From an uncultured Clostridia bacterium (GTDB lineage: Bacteria > Bacillota > Clostridia > Oscillospirales > CAG-272): a stretch of DNA of 47,295 bases. The stretch's first letter is position 1. Every line of letters begins with the position of its first letter. The translations under genes and the position numbers were made by a program. Of the stretch, positions 1 to 40,504 are shown piece after piece. The notes under the pieces are model-generated. The model was given only the letters and a program-made list of their open reading frames with translations. It searched no databases and was not told the DNA's origin. Location of the stretch: contig CANQPT010000011.1 of the NCBI GenBank assembly GCA_947625805.1, positions 1-47,295 of the forward strand. The letters run 5' to 3'.

Positions 1-76
1 AACAAGACGAACAACGGGCGAAATATTTGATCCGGCATTTGGGACTTTAAGGGAAAAATTTCCGTCGGGACTAATA

Positions 77-123: not shown

Positions 124-852
124 ATGGAGGTTGTTATGGCACTGTATCGATTTGCGGGGCTTGTAGTTGAAATGTCTCCGCAGTACCCTACACTGTTAAA
201 GCAGGCCTCGCCTTATATTTTGCAAGCGCAAGACGCAAAGCCGAATATAACCATTCGGCCGGACGAAGGATATATCGAATCCATTATACAAGCCGCTCCG
301 TATTTCTCGGCGGATATGGCCGAATATTGTCGGTTCGGTACGCTGTTTTACCGTGCCTTGCTTGCCTTTGACGGAATGATGCTTCATTCCTCTGCGGTGG
401 TGCTCGATCAAAAGGCTTATCTTTTTTCGGCGCCGTCCGGCACGGGCAAATCCACACATACTTCCGGCTGGATTCGGCGCTTTGGCAACCGATCGTTTAT
501 TTTGAACGACGATAAACCCGCCATACGCTTTCACAATGGCGTACTTTACGCTTACGGCACGCCGTTTTCCGGCAAAAGCGACCTTTCACGCAACGCGATG
601 GCGCCCGTCGCGGGTATCTGTATGCTCGAGCGGGGAAACCACAACCAGATCAAACGGATTTCCGCCGAACAAGCGCTTACGCTCATTTATGAGCAGACCA
701 TCCGCCGCCTGACGCGCGATGAGGGCACACGTATGCTGGAAACGCTGGTCAAAGTCGTTTGTTCGACGCCGCTGTGGAAGATGCGCTGTAACGTCAGCGC
801 CGAGGCGGTCGATCTTTCCTATCGCGCCATGAGCGGAGCCGCAACCGTCTGA
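124..852 (+). CDS. HPr kinase/PadeK-like kinase of the type found in RiPP clusters
   Basis: Walker A 'SAPSGTGKSTHT', 'ILNDDKPAIR', 'YGTPFSGKSDLS'. Resembles the HprK-like kinases of paeninodin-type lasso clusters. The start could be the Met at 136. Confidence 0.7.
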   Translation: MEVVMALYRFAGLVVEMSPQYPTLLKQASPYILQAQDAKPNITIRPDEGYIESIIQAAPYFSADMAEYCRFGTLFYRALLAFDGMMLHSSAVVLDQKAYLFSAPSGTGKSTHTSGWIRRFGNRSFILNDDKPAIRFHNGVLYAYGTPFSGKSDLSRNAMAPVAGICMLERGNHNQIKRISAEQALTLIYEQTIRRLTRDEGTRMLETLVKVVCSTPLWKMRCNVSAEAVDLSYRAMSGAATV

Positions 853-964: not shown

Positions 965-992
965 TTGACTTCCGTAAAAAATGTAGTATAAT
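965..992 (+). promoter_or_regulatory. SigA-type promoter for the secreted repeat protein
   Basis: TTGACT (965-970), 16-nt spacer, TATAAT (987-992). Confidence 0.7.
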
Positions 993-1078: not shown

Positions 1079-3616
1079 ATGGCAAAATTCAAACGTATGT
1101 CCAAACGAGGCTTGTCTGTGATTCTGGTGTGCATGATGCTGTTGTCCTGCATGACGCCGGTAATCGCGTTGGATAGCCCGGAAAAAAATTCAGTCACTAT
1201 TACATTCCCTCAAGAATTTGATAATGTGGCTTTTTACGGTGGAAGTGATACCAAACTAACAGGCAAAAAAACACTTGTAACAAACAACCCTTCAGATAAC
1301 TTATATATGGGTTTTTTAAGTGGATATTATACTTATACTTTTTATGCTGTTCCACAAAGTGAAGGAGCAGATTCTTTCGATGAGCCAATGCCCAATCTTA
1401 GTATTAAGTCCAAGCCAGATAATATTGCAGAAAACCCGGAATATGTGAATATAGACAAAGCCGGATACGCCGTAACACTCAAACTCCCAAAATCTATAGT
1501 TATGCTACAGGGCATTGCTTTTGAAGTAACAGTCATAGATTCGGTTGAAACTTTCGATGTAAACGTTCGAACCAGCGGCGACGGATTCACGGTAGACAAA
1601 CCCGGTGTTAACCCCGTTGAAAACGAAAAGGGTTTTGAATTAACTATCACTCTCAGCCCGAGTCGCCGCGCAGGCTATAAACCGCAGGTGTATGACAATG
1701 ATACACTGATAGATGACACTAAAGTTACCTCCCTCGATAATGGCAAATCATATACGTATAAACTTGATCAGGTAACGAGTGCTCATACCATTGATGTTTC
1801 GTTGGTTCCCATTACGTTTACGGTAAAACGTGATGAAGGAACAGAAAACTGGAAAAACGTTGAAACCACTTTGCGGGATGGGGGTGAAACGGTAAACTAC
1901 GGAAGCAATTACACGTTTTCTCTTGCTCCTGTCGCGGGTCATACCCTTGCTAATGAACCTGTTACCATCACAATGGCTCAGGATAGTGCAAAAGCAAAAA
2001 CCCTTACAAAAGGCACGGACTATGTGGTAGTCGGAAATCAATATACCATCTATAACATTACCGGCGATGTTACAGTTACGCTCAAGGCAGTAACAGAACA
2101 GAAGTTCAACGTGAATTGGCCTACCGATACAGGATATACAATTGTTTCTGACAGTGGTAGTGACATTACAGCTGACGAGAAGTCAGTTGTTTATGGCGAT
2201 ACGTTCAAGTTCAAAGTTAAATTGGATCCCGCTTATAGCAAATCCGAACGCAATGTGGTCGTTACGGTAAACGGTCAGATTTTACCCGTTGGCGATGACA
2301 AAATTTACACCATTTCCGATATTAAAGAGAATAAAACCATTTTGGTGAACGGCGTTACTCTAAACACCTATAACATCACGCATATACAGACTGGAAATGG
2401 TTATACCTTTAGTTCACAGAGTTCGATGAGTAATGTCCCGCACGGTTCGTCTTTCTCTTTCACTGTTACGCCTGTAACCGGGTACACAATCGAAAGTGTT
2501 AAGTATAAGAAGTCCAGTGAAGTTGCAGATAATGGAACATCTTTAGAATCAAACGGAAACGTTTACACGATCGATAAAGTTGAAGATAACCTTACAATAA
2601 CCGTTACCGCTACGACGAGCACGTATACCCTTACTCTTCCGAATAAAGACACTGAGCGGAAGGGATATACCATAAAAATAGGCAACGAAGAGGCAGGAAA
2701 CAGCAAAGTATGCAATTACAATGATCCCGTCGAACTTACCATCGCGCCAAAAAAAGGCTATACCGTCACGGGTGTTTATAGAGTGGTAGACGGCGAAAGA
2801 TCACTGGTATATGGCGCTAATAACAACTATACGATCAGAGTAACAAGCGATATGAAAATTGTCGTTGAAACAGATACAATCAAATACACTGTTACCTATC
2901 AAGACAGCAAAGGCGGAACGACTACAAAAACATACGACGTAGAAACCGGAGTAAACCTTGAAAAAGGATCTCCCGAGATTACAGTGGATATTGCTGACCC
3001 AACACATGCTTATTACACTTTCGAAGGTTGGTCGAATGCGCAAAACTCTCAAAACTCTAATGTAAAAAAAGGCGGAACGATCGTACTCGCAACCGGCGAA
3101 ACCTCAGCTACCGTTACCGCACAGTGGACACTGAACCTTAGCGCACTTGAAACAAATACCGCAGGCGCTAGTACCAAAGCTTTAGGCGGTACTGTCACCT
3201 ATGACAAAGAAGACCACGAGAAGCTGACCATCAAGGTCACATGGAATTTGGGTGTGTTCCGCGAGGCCATCTCTGAAGTAGCCAACGCCAATTATGATAT
3301 TGTCTCCGTGGGCATCTGCTACTCCAATCAGAAAATAACCGAAACCGATACAAATTGGCAAACAAACGTAAAAAATTTAACGAACGAGAAAACGGAAAAA
3401 GAAGGCGAAGTGATAGTCAACTCGAACCAGCATCTCTACTACTATGTAGACGGCAGAGTTCTTGCCGAACAGGCGGATACCGCTACGTTTAAGTTCAGCA
3501 ACGTGAGAAAACCTCGATATGCGATCGGTTGGATCACAGTTCGGATCGGCAACAACGAAAACGATACCGTCACGCTTTACACAGGTGAAATAAGCTACAC
3601 CGAGTTCGATTCTTGA
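1079..3616 (+). CDS. Secreted InlB B-repeat/beta-grasp repeat surface protein
   Basis: SD AAGGAGGAAAG before ATG 1079; signal peptide MAKFKRMSKRGLSVILVCMMLLSCMTPVIA; repeated 'YTVTVTGVY'-type units; 'FEGWSNAQ...TVTAQW' InlB-like motif. No LPxTG or C-terminal TM. Confidence 0.7.
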   Translation: MAKFKRMSKRGLSVILVCMMLLSCMTPVIALDSPEKNSVTITFPQEFDNVAFYGGSDTKLTGKKTLVTNNPSDNLYMGFLSGYYTYTFYAVPQSEGADSFDEPMPNLSIKSKPDNIAENPEYVNIDKAGYAVTLKLPKSIVMLQGIAFEVTVIDSVETFDVNVRTSGDGFTVDKPGVNPVENEKGFELTITLSPSRRAGYKPQVYDNDTLIDDTKVTSLDNGKSYTYKLDQVTSAHTIDVSLVPITFTVKRDEGTENWKNVETTLRDGGETVNYGSNYTFSLAPVAGHTLANEPVTITMAQDSAKAKTLTKGTDYVVVGNQYTIYNITGDVTVTLKAVTEQKFNVNWPTDTGYTIVSDSGSDITADEKSVVYGDTFKFKVKLDPAYSKSERNVVVTVNGQILPVGDDKIYTISDIKENKTILVNGVTLNTYNITHIQTGNGYTFSSQSSMSNVPHGSSFSFTVTPVTGYTIESVKYKKSSEVADNGTSLESNGNVYTIDKVEDNLTITVTATTSTYTLTLPNKDTERKGYTIKIGNEEAGNSKVCNYNDPVELTIAPKKGYTVTGVYRVVDGERSLVYGANNNYTIRVTSDMKIVVETDTIKYTVTYQDSKGGTTTKTYDVETGVNLEKGSPEITVDIADPTHAYYTFEGWSNAQNSQNSNVKKGGTIVLATGETSATVTAQWTLNLSALETNTAGASTKALGGTVTYDKEDHEKLTIKVTWNLGVFREAISEVANANYDIVSVGICYSNQKITETDTNWQTNVKNLTNEKTEKEGEVIVNSNQHLYYYVDGRVLAEQADTATFKFSNVRKPRYAIGWITVRIGNNENDTVTLYTGEISYTEFDS

Positions 3617-3661: not shown

Positions 3662-3811
3662 ATGAAGAAGAAACCGTATGTTTCACCGGATTTCAAGGTC
3701 GTGATATACGAATCAGAACAGGATATCATGACATATTCTACTACCCATCCTGATCCGTTCGATTCGTTTGACTCGTTTGAAGATCTGTCAGACGACGACC
3801 TTGACAAATAA
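3662..3811 (+). CDS. Short peptide, YxxPx[LFM] family member 1 (RiPP-precursor-like)
   Basis: MKKKPYVSPDFKVVIYESEQDIMTYSTTHPDPFDSFDSFEDLSDDDLDK. The start at 3662 is chosen by alignment to the two paralogs; the track ORF begins at 3629. Confidence 0.65.
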   Translation: MKKKPYVSPDFKVVIYESEQDIMTYSTTHPDPFDSFDSFEDLSDDDLDK

Positions 3812-3831: not shown

Positions 3832-4017
3832 ATGAGCAAGAAGTATATTTCACCGGAATTAACCGTTGTGCTTTTTGAGACAAAAGATGCATTGATGGCC
3901 GGCGCTGGCGGATACGAGAAGTCCTACGTCGACCCGTTCCAAGACAAAGCTCCTTCTCCGCCCGCCGCCGAGGGCAAGATAAAACAGGACTGGAGTCCGA
4001 TCGATAGTCTGAAGTGA
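3832..4017 (+). CDS. Short peptide, YxxPx[LFM] family member 2 (RiPP-precursor-like)
   Basis: MSKKYISPELTVVLFETKDALMAGAGGYEKSYVDPFQDKAPSPPAAEGKIKQDWSPIDSLK; SD AGAGGTG upstream. Confidence 0.7.
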   Translation: MSKKYISPELTVVLFETKDALMAGAGGYEKSYVDPFQDKAPSPPAAEGKIKQDWSPIDSLK

Positions 4018-4989: not shown

Positions 4990-5742
4990 ATGTCTGATAA
5001 GAGCAAAAAACAAAAAGAGTATACGGCCCTTGAAATAGAAGATGCGTTCCCGATGGGTCAACATCTCAGCTTTGCCGCAACCGAGGCATACAAACGACTG
5101 CGTTCATCGTTGATCTTCTGTTTGCCCAAAAATGAAAATAAAAACTGCCGTATCGTGGGTATCACAAGCAGTAACGTGGGCGAAGGCAAAAGCACTACCG
5201 CGTTCAACCTTGCGTATTCGATTGCCGAAAGCGACCAGCGCGTGCTTTGTCTGGAGGCGGATATGCGCCTTCCGCAGATTTCCAAACGCTTGAATTTAGA
5301 GACCTCACCGGGTCTTAGCGAGTGTCTGGCCGGTGAAGTCCTGGAAGGAAACGACGCCATTCGGAAAATCAACAACAATTTATACGTTATGCCGTCGGGC
5401 AGAGTTCCGCCCAATCCTTCCGAACTTTTGGGCTCGTCGGCAATGAGCCGCCTGCTTGAGCTTTTGTCGCAGGTTTTCAGCTTTATTGTGATTGATCTTC
5501 CGCCGATTGGAGCCGTTGTGGACGCGCTCAACGTGGCCAAACAGGTGGACGGTATGGTTATGGTCGTCCGCAGAGAATGGGCGACGCGCCGTTCTCTTGC
5601 AAGCGCGGTGCGCGAACTCAAACTTGCCGACGCGCGTCTTTTGGGATTTGTCTTTAACGACGCAACGGAAGGAAGCAAAAAGCCTAAAAAATACAAGGGC
5701 TATAAAAAATATTCAAAATACTACTATACAAAACAGGATTGA
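4990..5742 (+). CDS. CpsD/CapB-family BY-kinase (tyrosine-protein kinase)
   Basis: 'SSNVGEGKSTTAFNLAYSIAESDQRVLCLEADMRLPQ'; Tyr-rich tail 'KKYKGYKKYSKYYYTKQD'. Confidence 0.9.
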   Translation: MSDKSKKQKEYTALEIEDAFPMGQHLSFAATEAYKRLRSSLIFCLPKNENKNCRIVGITSSNVGEGKSTTAFNLAYSIAESDQRVLCLEADMRLPQISKRLNLETSPGLSECLAGEVLEGNDAIRKINNNLYVMPSGRVPPNPSELLGSSAMSRLLELLSQVFSFIVIDLPPIGAVVDALNVAKQVDGMVMVVRREWATRRSLASAVRELKLADARLLGFVFNDATEGSKKPKKYKGYKKYSKYYYTKQD

Positions 5743-5763: not shown

Positions 5764-6471
5764 ATGTTGATTGATTTTCATTCTCATATTCTTCCCGGGA
5801 TCGACGACGGTGCGGCGGATCTTTCCGTAAGTCTGGAACTGATCGCCTCATCTGCGAAACAAGGCGTTGGGCTTATGGCGGCAACGCCTCATTTCTACCC
5901 GTATCGCGTTGGATTTGACACGTTCTTTCAAAATCGCGCAAGGGCTTTCGATGCAGTATCGGAAGTCTTGCCGGCCGGGTCGCCTCATATCCTGCCGGGT
6001 GCGGAAGTGGGCTATTTCAAAGGAATCAGTCAAGTATCCGAAGCCGAACGGTTGGGACTGGGAAACACGGGGATTCTCCTATTGGAAATGCCGTTTGAGC
6101 GGTGGGATAAGAGCGTGATATCCGAAGTCGTGGACTTACACCAAAGCGGCGGGGTGACCGTGTTGATCGCGCACATTGAACGATACATAGACTATCAGAA
6201 ACATAACGCTGTGCAAGAACTGCTCAACTCCGGGATCTATTTTCAATCAAACGCAGAGTTCTTTTTGAATAAGAGGCAAAAAAAGACAGCGCTTAAGATG
6301 TTGGAGCGCGGGCAGATCCACGTCTTAGGGTCGGACTGCCACAATATGACCGATCGCAAACCCAATCTGGGCGAGGCCGTTCGCGTTATAACCGACGCAT
6401 TCGGCGCGTCGGCGGTCGATGCGATTGACACGTTCGGCGCAAATCTTTTGTCAGGTGAAATTCCAAAGTAA
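5764..6471 (+). CDS. CpsB/CapC-family PHP tyrosine phosphatase
   Basis: 'LIDFHSHILPGIDDGAADL...MAATPHFYP...VLGSDCHNM' PHP motifs. Confidence 0.9.
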   Translation: MLIDFHSHILPGIDDGAADLSVSLELIASSAKQGVGLMAATPHFYPYRVGFDTFFQNRARAFDAVSEVLPAGSPHILPGAEVGYFKGISQVSEAERLGLGNTGILLLEMPFERWDKSVISEVVDLHQSGGVTVLIAHIERYIDYQKHNAVQELLNSGIYFQSNAEFFLNKRQKKTALKMLERGQIHVLGSDCHNMTDRKPNLGEAVRVITDAFGASAVDAIDTFGANLLSGEIPK

Positions 6472-37436: not shown

Positions 37437-37580
37437 TCATTCGCCGAAAAAGGTTTCTTCGTCCAGCAAAGAATCAAAGCCAAGGGGATCGGTGTCGGAG
37501 CCGTTAAAATCGTCCATGATCTCCTTGTCGGTCGCAAAGTGATATACGATCATCTCGGGAGTTTCGTACTGTGTTTTCAT
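37437..37580 (-). CDS. Short peptide, YxxPx[LFM] family member 3 (absent from ORF track)
   Basis: MKTQYETPEMIVYHFATDKEIMDDFNGSDTDPLGFDSLLDEETFFGE (47 aa); strong SD GGAAAGGAGAA upstream of the ATG on the minus strand. Confidence 0.7.
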   Translation of the reverse strand: MKTQYETPEMIVYHFATDKEIMDDFNGSDTDPLGFDSLLDEETFFGE

Positions 37581-37603: not shown

Positions 37604-40504
37604 TTAAACGTTATCGGGCATCAGCTGAGTGCTCGTCTCCGCGGTGACCACATAAATCTTTCCGTTGATACGCAGGGTTACGAAGGCCATGACGTACCGC
37701 TCCTCGTTTTTCGGAATATCTTTCATGGTGAAGTTGATGTTGCTGGCAATATAAGCATCGAAAGAAAAATCTCTGCCCGCTACGTAGTAGTATACGCCCT
37801 TTGGACTATTTTGAAGAACCGTCGATGGCTGTCGGTTTTTCCACTCGTAGTCACCATTATCAACCTCGTAATTCTGTTTGGCAATTTCATCTTTTACTTG
37901 ATCCGCCGTAAAGGAGCCATCCGCATAAACAAAGCCAAACGCCAGAATCTTCGCGTTTTTCAGATCTTCTTGATACTTGAACTCTGCGCCGTCTCCCCCG
38001 GTCGAGTCCCATCCAAACCGGAATGCATTCGTATACTTGCCATCCTGTTCACCCTGTGTAGGTGGATCCGTTTTTACATCTACCTGCACCATTTTCTGAA
38101 CGGCCTCATCAGGAACATACCACAAGGCCGTCAAGTGGATCTCCGTGCCTTTCTTGAAGTCGCTGTTGATGGTCAGTGTCTGCCCGTCCTCGGAAAGGGT
38201 ACAACCGACTGGAGCTTGGTCCGTAAACTCCCATCCGCCGAATTCGTACTTGACCGTTTCTTCATCATCGTTCATGATGTCGTCAAGCGTTTTCAGCGTG
38301 ACGGTCATGGTGCCATCGGCCACTTGCACATTCTCATCCTCGGAGGTGTACGTCTCCTGCGTGGTCTTGGGTTCGCTTTCACTCTTATCGTCCGTGTAGG
38401 AAACGGTGTACGTGTTGGGGGTCTTATCGAAGATCGGGTACAGGTCGCAGTTGGTGTAGATCGCCTCGACCGGGTTGCCCTTCCGGTCACCCCAACACTT
38501 GAAGGTGTAGGTGTACTGAACGTCGGCAGGCTTTTCGGGTTTGCTCACGTCCTTGAGAAGTGCGAAGACTTCGTTCGGGGTCTTGAGCGCGCCGCGCTGG
38601 ACGTTGTTCGAGTTACTAGTACCTTGGACAACGTTCACATTAGTATACTCGTATTTCACGGGCTCGGCGATCGGCTCCCCGTCTTCACCGTGGAAGGTCA
38701 CGGTCGGCTGTAGGTTGTCCTGAATGACCGCCAACATGGTGAAGGTTGCGTTCGAATTTTCGTTTTTCGGCTCTCTTTGGTTGTTTTCATCGTAAAAATG
38801 TGTTGCATGACTGTTAAAGATCGAAAATTCGCTGACCGCACTTGCGGTATACACACCGTTCATGCCGTTCAATCTCGAATTGATATAAAAGTAATAGTAT
38901 CCGTTTTTCAGGTCAAGTACGCTGGGGGCTTTTCCGTCGTTCGAGTCCGCGGGTGAGCCCCATTGCCAAGATTGACCGCGCAGACCATCATTACCATTTG
39001 AATCCAGACCCCACATTTTGACGTACACATCATCCGCGATGATAGTCTTGTCGGCATCCACTCCGTCAATCTTGTAGACCAGCGTGATACCGGTACCGCC
39101 GTGCAGAGCCACCTTCTCCTGCAAGAAATTCTGTTTTGCGGCGGGGTTGTTGATGGTTTGTGTGGTCGGTTTTTCGTAGACGATACCGTATTTGTCGTAG
39201 GAGGCTACGAAGGTTACGTCATCGACGTAAACATAGGTTGCGGGATTCACAAGTGTTCCGTCCGAGCCTTGCACCGTCCAGCCCTTAAAGGTGTAGGCAT
39301 ACACGCCGTCGTGCTTACTCAGGTTCGGCACTTGCGGGACTTCCCCGTCCAGTTTACCTTGATTTGCGGAAAGTTGCTTAATTGTCGTTCCGTCATCGTC
39401 GAGGAAAGTGACCGTGTACTCCGTCTCTCCGGAAGCCGTCTTGTAGTACGGGAAAAGATCGACGTCCTCGTAGATGTAGTCAATCCGGTTGCCCGCCTCG
39501 TCACCCCAGTAATCAAACACGTAATAGGTCTCACCTTCCGGCTCCTTGGCGGGAAGAGTGGGGTGTTCGTCCAACAGCGCGTACACTTCGTTCGGTGTCT
39601 TGAGCGCGCCACGCTGTACGTTGTTCGAGTTATTAGTACCTTGGACAACGTTCACATTGGTATACTCGTATTTTATGGGCTCGGCGATCAGCTCCCCGTC
39701 TTCACCGTGGAAGGTGACGGTCGGCTGTAGATTGTCCTGAATGACCGCCAGCATGGTGAAAGTTGCGTTTGAATTGTTGTTTAACGGGTCTCTTTTGTTG
39801 TGTTCATCGTAAAAATGTGTTGCATGACTGTTAAAGATGGAAAATTCGCTGACCGCACTCGCGGTATACACACCGTTCATGCCGTTCAATCTCGAATTGA
39901 TATAAAAGTAATAGTATCCGTTTTTCATGTCAAGCACGCTGGGGGCTTTTCCGTCGTTCGACTCTGCGGGCAAGCCCCATTGCCAAGATTGACCGCGCAG
40001 ACCATCATTACCGTTTGAATCCAGACCCCACAATTTGACGTACACATCATCCGCGATGATAGTCTTGTCGGCATCCACTCCGTCAATCTTGTAGACCAGC
40101 GTGATACCGGTACCGCCGTGCAGCGGAACTTTCTCAGGTAAAAGATCCTGCTTGGTACCATCAGGGTTTTTGATTGTAATCGGTTTCGGGTCTACGAAAT
40201 ACACACCGCCCCCGTCTGCCGCCTTTGTTTGCACTTCATCATCTGTGTCCGCGTCCGTGGCGGTCAATTCCGCTTCCGGGACGGCGTCCGGCGTGTCCGC
40301 GCTCGCAGTGGTTTCCGCGCCGACGGAAGAGTCTGCTTCATCCGCGGCGGCGATTTCCTGCCCCACGGGCTGTACGCTTGCCGACAGGGTTTCTTCAGCC
40401 GCGCTTTCGACGGTTTGTGCGCCGACGGAAAAGCTCGCAACAGGCGTTACGGAAACGACTGTCACAATCGCCAGCAAAAGCGCCAACAACTCTTTCTTCA
40501 TCAT
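37604..40504 (-). CDS. Secreted protein with duplicated domain and InlB-like repeats
   Basis: Signal peptide MMKKELLALLLAIVTVVSVTPVASFSVGAQ; SD GGAGGAACAT; 'YAYTFKGWTVQG...VASYD' InlB-like motifs; C-terminal module shared with the 1079-3616 product. Confidence 0.75.
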   Translation of the reverse strand: MMKKELLALLLAIVTVVSVTPVASFSVGAQTVESAAEETLSASVQPVGQEIAAADEADSSVGAETTASADTPDAVPEAELTATDADTDDEVQTKAADGGGVYFVDPKPITIKNPDGTKQDLLPEKVPLHGGTGITLVYKIDGVDADKTIIADDVYVKLWGLDSNGNDGLRGQSWQWGLPAESNDGKAPSVLDMKNGYYYFYINSRLNGMNGVYTASAVSEFSIFNSHATHFYDEHNKRDPLNNNSNATFTMLAVIQDNLQPTVTFHGEDGELIAEPIKYEYTNVNVVQGTNNSNNVQRGALKTPNEVYALLDEHPTLPAKEPEGETYYVFDYWGDEAGNRIDYIYEDVDLFPYYKTASGETEYTVTFLDDDGTTIKQLSANQGKLDGEVPQVPNLSKHDGVYAYTFKGWTVQGSDGTLVNPATYVYVDDVTFVASYDKYGIVYEKPTTQTINNPAAKQNFLQEKVALHGGTGITLVYKIDGVDADKTIIADDVYVKMWGLDSNGNDGLRGQSWQWGSPADSNDGKAPSVLDLKNGYYYFYINSRLNGMNGVYTASAVSEFSIFNSHATHFYDENNQREPKNENSNATFTMLAVIQDNLQPTVTFHGEDGEPIAEPVKYEYTNVNVVQGTSNSNNVQRGALKTPNEVFALLKDVSKPEKPADVQYTYTFKCWGDRKGNPVEAIYTNCDLYPIFDKTPNTYTVSYTDDKSESEPKTTQETYTSEDENVQVADGTMTVTLKTLDDIMNDDEETVKYEFGGWEFTDQAPVGCTLSEDGQTLTINSDFKKGTEIHLTALWYVPDEAVQKMVQVDVKTDPPTQGEQDGKYTNAFRFGWDSTGGDGAEFKYQEDLKNAKILAFGFVYADGSFTADQVKDEIAKQNYEVDNGDYEWKNRQPSTVLQNSPKGVYYYVAGRDFSFDAYIASNINFTMKDIPKNEERYVMAFVTLRINGKIYVVTAETSTQLMPDNV
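38568..39118 (-). repeat. 551-bp intragenic repeat, copy B
   Basis: Encodes EKVALHGGTGITLVYK...ALKTPNEVFALL, near-identical to copy A at 39585-40135. Confidence 0.85.
39585..40135 (-). repeat. 551-bp intragenic repeat, copy A
   Basis: Encodes EKVPLHGGTGITLVYK...ALKTPNEVYALL; same length as copy B. Confidence 0.85.

Follow-up and report, generated by a model that had tools for sequence, protein, structure and literature searches.

The window analyzed here is the whole of contig CANQPT010000011.1 (G000:C11:1-47295; 47,295 nucleotides), which belongs to a Clostridia bacterium assembly (G000) of 1.87 Mb in 74 contigs, 93% complete. At its left end a gene for an HprK-like kinase precedes, by 2.8 kb, the genes for two small peptides with YxxP motifs, and the locus raises the question of whether the kinase acts on these peptides, at which residue, and in what kind of pathway. 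The first-pass annotation had tentatively placed kinase and peptides in a phosphopeptide pathway of the paeninodin lasso type. Our results support the connection between kinase and peptides, whereas they do not support the lasso frame, and we put at roughly two in three the probability that the kinase is the LppK-like enzyme of a Linear Polyphosphorylated Peptide (LPP) system, in a clostridial variant whose genes are dispersed and whose precursors are encoded behind large secreted proteins. The features on which the argument draws are as follows.

1 to 50, forward strand: final 15 codons and stop codon, at the 3' end of what is probably an LppN/PsmN-like nucleotidyltransferase gene of the NTP_transf_5 family, truncated by the contig edge
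77 to 105, forward strand: promoter-like site of the kinase gene, TTGACT-17-TATACT with TG before the second hexamer (10/12; consensus match only)
136 to 852, forward strand: HprK-like peptide kinase (LppK-like), intact; the open reading frame also reads from 124
965 to 992, forward strand: promoter-like site of the unit of surface gene, P1, and P2, TTGACT-16-TATAAT (11/12; consensus match only)
1079 to 3616, forward strand: secreted repeat protein, 845 aa, directly 5' of P1, with a weak List_Bact_rpt match under the cut-off
3662 to 3811, forward strand: YxxP-leader peptide P1, 49 aa, with an uncertain start (3629, 3644, or 3662)
3832 to 4017, forward strand: YxxP-leader peptide P2, 61 aa
4028 to 4064, forward strand: terminator-like stem of 17 pairs, 3' of P2
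4244 to 4975, forward strand: Wzz-type chain-length protein of a polysaccharide locus (PF02706, 1.5e-14)
4990 to 5742, forward strand: CpsD-type tyrosine autokinase (TIGR01007, 3e-43)
5764 to 6471, forward strand: CpsB/CapC phosphatase (PF19567, 5.3e-39)
37437 to 37580, reverse strand: YxxP-leader peptide P3, 47 aa, YETPEM, far from the kinase
37604 to 40504, reverse strand: secreted protein directly 5' of P3, homologous to the protein before P4 on C12
8178 to 8324 of L042 (G000:C12): YxxP peptide P4, near P3 in sequence, kinase not nearby
1386 to 1535 of L039 (G000:C17), reverse strand: YxxP peptide P5, near P3 in sequence, kinase not nearby

The kinase gene is intact as described. Its better start is the ATG at 136, with GGAGG five bases upstream, within the frame 124 to 852, and its P-loop (SAPSGTGKSTHT) and LNDDKP motif are both unbroken and occupy conserved positions in an alignment with 14 relatives. 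The nearest curated NCBIfam models, also PqqD-associated by name, are ScmC (SynChlorMet, TIGR04249; 4.5e-7, 29.5 bits against a cut-off of 125) and HprK-related kinase A (HprK_rel_A, TIGR04352; 1.5e-4, 21 bits against 200), but the kinase falls far under both cut-offs. A Pfam search of the kinase gave no match, the HPr-kinase family included, and for that reason the reading as a true HPr kinase was dropped; the AF2 model (pLDDT 92) matches structures of HprK/P and PEPCK. The promoter of its own that had been ascribed to the gene would correspond to the promoter-like site at 77 to 105. A second kinase, on contig C6, is 59% identical to that of the window and is directly followed by an RRE gene; both kinases are in frame and keep the conserved motifs. 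Just ahead of this second kinase and RRE lie an AMP-ligase and a small carrier-protein-like open reading frame (L004, 8343 to 10018 of G000:C6).

The lasso maturation genes B1, B2, and C had been expected to the left of the window or elsewhere in the genome. Since the window is an entire contig, C11 has no sequence left of base 1; its edge holds the probable 3' end of an NTP_transf_5 gene. The first 55 bases of C11 match, base for base, the 3' end of a PF14907 gene on C31 (9.7e-35), and the two sequences diverge beyond. A 55-mer shared with C31 and placed exactly at the contig start suggests that the assembly graph branches here, so that the kinase probably follows an LppN/PsmN-like gene by 85 bases. 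The overlap makes it probable that genes of the LppN and LppK types stand side by side within a capsule locus. The genome has two NTP_transf_5 genes, on C31 and C14.

Both peptides reported downstream of the kinase are present, as is the third, which carries FDSLLDEE. The YxxPxL motif attributed to the first two is found in P2 (YISPEL), whereas P1 has YVSPDF, that is, YxxPxF. P1 and P2 appear to lie in a transcription unit separate from the kinase, behind the secreted protein. With P4, which is directly 3' of a large secreted protein, and P5, which follows one truncated by the contig end, the assembly holds five precursors. P1 to P3 score 2.5e-9 to 4e-11 with the peptide HMM, of whose seed they are part.

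The relatives of the kinase bear on whether it belongs with such peptides. Scanning genome contigs for the kinase yielded 80 loci, in 76 of which the kinase was called. Within 4 kb of the kinase in these 76 loci are PqqD-like genes (42), S24/S26-like peptidases (29), ABC transporter clusters (26), NTP_transf_5 (17), and Wzz (11), and the recurrent neighborhood consists of peptide, kinase, PqqD/RRE, SipW-like peptidase, ABC exporter, and NTP_transf_5. The peptide HMM, its seed drawn partly from these same loci, detects precursors at 19 of the 76 loci; its 21 matches without exception lie upstream of the kinase, on the kinase strand, and at most 3.4 kb away, a zone that makes up 9.7% of the strand-space. 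Among 197 sampled genomes of the order, the kinase occurs in 56 and the peptide in 19 when scored by a DNA pattern that misses many precursors, P1 and P2 included. The kinase is present in 18 of the 19 peptide-bearing genomes versus 38 of the 178 others (p 2e-10) and, without two doubtful peptides, in 16/17 versus 40/180 (p 4e-9), genome relatedness being ignored in both comparisons. Neighborhood and whole-genome co-occurrence together support a real link, and hence a system of kinase and YxxP peptides.

The serines originally singled out, those of the [FI]DS motifs in the peptide tails, fare less well: they are unconserved across the family, and that of FDSLL is replaced by Ala in the paralogue P5. 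The conserved Ser is at Y+19, where it is found in 16 of 38 clostridial peptides (p 3e-10) and in 7 of 13 from a later set (p 1.6e-4 with their own tails as background, 5e-6 with the earlier one), sequence relatedness being ignored throughout; the clostridial leader consensus reads YxxPExEVxxFxxED[VI][IL][TM]xS. To judge by conservation, the phosphorylated Ser is likely the one just past the leader and not one of the acidic FDS tail serines. P1 has a candidate at Y+20, within MTYST, and P2 to P5 lack Ser at each of the three positions Y+18 to Y+20, and so at the consensus slot; P1 is accordingly the best substrate candidate among the precursors.

Of the maturation genes expected elsewhere, counterparts of a different kind are found. 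A discrete PqqD-like RRE on C6 (71.9 bits) stands beside the second kinase and not beside that of the window, and a SipW-like peptidase with Ser-His-Asp residues is encoded on C28 (E 7e-37), alone beside housekeeping genes. For the MsbA-like exporter there are 14 candidate ABC proteins at 24 to 37% identity, of which none could be singled out. The RRE family keeps an Asp four residues before a conserved Phe, as in LppB (9x8z), whereas PbaB1 of paeninodin has Gln; the same Asp is also found in YxxP-binding lasso RREs, and by profile scores alone (TbiB1, 41.5 bits; TfuB1, 34.5; PbaB1, 33.2; LppB, 31.5) RREs of LPP and of lasso pathways cannot be told apart. A PDB search with the single RRE sequence returned mostly alphaRep matches, judged an artefact.

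These parts recall LPP, described from Paenibacillus alginolyticus by Popov et al. (Nat Commun, May 2026; PMC13381572). The LPP gene set, lppA-K-B-S-D-N, encodes a YxxP leader, lies in capsule loci, and has no cyclase; core Ser3, at Y+18 counting residues from the leader Tyr, is polyphosphorylated, and the leader is removed by a SipW-like peptidase in an RRE-dependent manner (PMC13381572). By gene content and motifs our system is most like LPP, yet it is dispersed over the genome and has its own leader consensus. The genome has the HprK-like kinase, discrete RRE, SipW-like peptidase, and NTP transferase, and the ABC exporter of the set is seen in relatives of the window locus; YxxP leader, capsule loci, and lack of a cyclase are common to both. 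A Ser soon after the leader is seen family-wide at Y+19, but among the precursors of this genome in P1 only, at Y+20. LPP, however, was worked out in Bacilli (the SpI set is mostly Bacillota), whereas the present system is clostridial, and the clostridial leader has neither the HQ nor the FET of the LPP leader consensus, YxxPxVLxHQxIxFETxxS. LPP clusters are described as having one to three precursors and not five behind secreted proteins, and their genes are clustered, whereas here only precursors, kinase, and the probable NTP transferase gene are together; clustering is seen in the relatives L084, from the cultured Herbivorax sp. ANBcel31, and L092, which have the order A-K-B-S-D-N, A being separated from K by a single S-layer-type gene.

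By analogy with the published Paenibacillus system, from which alone the binding, phosphorylation, and cleavage steps are known (PMC13381572), the C6 RRE would bind the YxxP leader of the precursors, P1 first and possibly P2 to P5; the kinase would then phosphorylate the Ser just past the leader (Y+19 in the consensus, Y+20 in P1), and the C28 peptidase would cut off the leader. The NTP_transf_5 enzyme, its gene probably adjacent to that of the kinase, may modify the phosphate ahead of export by a putative ABC transporter. We infer that in this bacterium these enzymes cooperate in trans, with P1 and P2 as substrates of the window kinase; the basis from the present analysis is gene content, conserved neighborhood, co-occurrence, intact active-site residues, and the conserved Ser. 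The capsule-locus setting and the position behind large secreted proteins suggest a role at the cell surface or in the matrix.

Several points count against an LPP variant: the spread of its genes over several contigs, the lack of an ABC protein that stands out as exporter, the apparent separation of the peptides from the transcription unit of the kinase, the RRE profile scores, the divergent leader, and the missing consensus-slot Ser of P2 to P5. The first and the last of these would also fit a decayed or split remnant in which the window kinase, adjoined by no RRE, no longer meets RRE or exporter, and the kinase-RRE pair on C6 is the working one; RRE, peptidase, and kinase are indeed on different contigs. 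We consider this quite improbable, given two kinases intact in frame with conserved motifs and five precursors in the assembly. The peptides might instead serve the secreted proteins that they follow, as chaperone, partner, or tail decoy, with the kinase substrate elsewhere in the polysaccharide locus and the shared neighborhood reflecting a common surface role. Each of P3, P4, and P5 follows a large secreted protein at a site away from any kinase gene, the peptide of relatives is often close behind a large open frame, and its tail clearly matches that of a neighboring protein in 2 of the 19 peptide loci (permutation mean, 0.05 loci). This explanation is unlikely, if less so than a remnant: peptides and kinase co-occur across whole genomes, the 21 matches are placed on one side of the kinase, and the conserved leader and Ser point to the RRE/kinase set. 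As a long shot, the YxxP peptides would accompany large proteins of secreted or S-layer type, and a phosphate or sugar-phosphate added by the kinase and NTP_transf_5 would tie the peptide, and perhaps protein tails that imitate its own, to capsule polysaccharide, which would amount to cell-surface tagging and not a free small-molecule pathway.

The lasso pathway with C-terminal Ser phosphorylation has a rationale in that lasso peptides of Firmicutes are tailored by HprK-like kinase and NTP_transf_5 enzymes (PMC8498205), and the same tailoring pair marks paeninodin and pseudomycoidin (PadeK, PsmK, PsmN). It is nevertheless already contradicted and hardly credible here. The best B2 protease (PF13471) match in the 93% complete assembly reaches 14.5 bits, under the cut-off, and the cyclase family is represented only by a sole full-length Asn_synthase match (PF00733 type) that begins MCGFVGFTGE, lies among non-RiPP genes, and looks like housekeeping AsnB; for these two reasons the lasso pathway is not supported. 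In addition, the leaders have Tyr and not Trp, the RRE has Asp and not Gln, and P1 to P5 end in K, K, E, E, and Q, none of them Ser. A Pfam scan of 46 neighboring proteins from the peptide loci gave neither lasso family among the 25 of 60 families listed.

If the LPP-variant reading is true, LPP-related systems are common in Clostridia, to judge by the frequency of the kinase in the order, and gain a new leader consensus and a predicted phosphorylation site. The 2026 description of LPP, from Bacilli, assigned it no role (PMC13381572), and the recurrent position of precursor genes 3' of large secreted proteins would offer a concrete lead on function.

Several further observations were made in passing. 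The peptide tail EGDNGTGWG of L120 is identical to the C terminus of a neighboring secreted protein, the tail GGWET...PEGW of L091 matches such a C terminus, and a G[YW][ST]GIY tail is common to three non-peptide proteins of L074; tail sharing as a general rule was dropped, as same-locus tails are overall no more alike than random. A Lentisphaeria record (L107) has kinase and YxxP peptide with the other module genes not nearby, possibly through transfer or contig misassignment. In L019 and L024, kinase relatives stand with genes of the radical-SAM-like and PqqD-like kinds and with peptides that contain Cys and start YxKP, an arrangement that recalls SynChlorMet cassettes. Finally, L154 (1671 to 3292 of G000:C13) encodes a small Cys-rich peptide that by eye resembles SCIFF; its neighbor, a protein of 470 aa whose N terminus is weakly PqqD-like, is possibly a radical SAM maturase.
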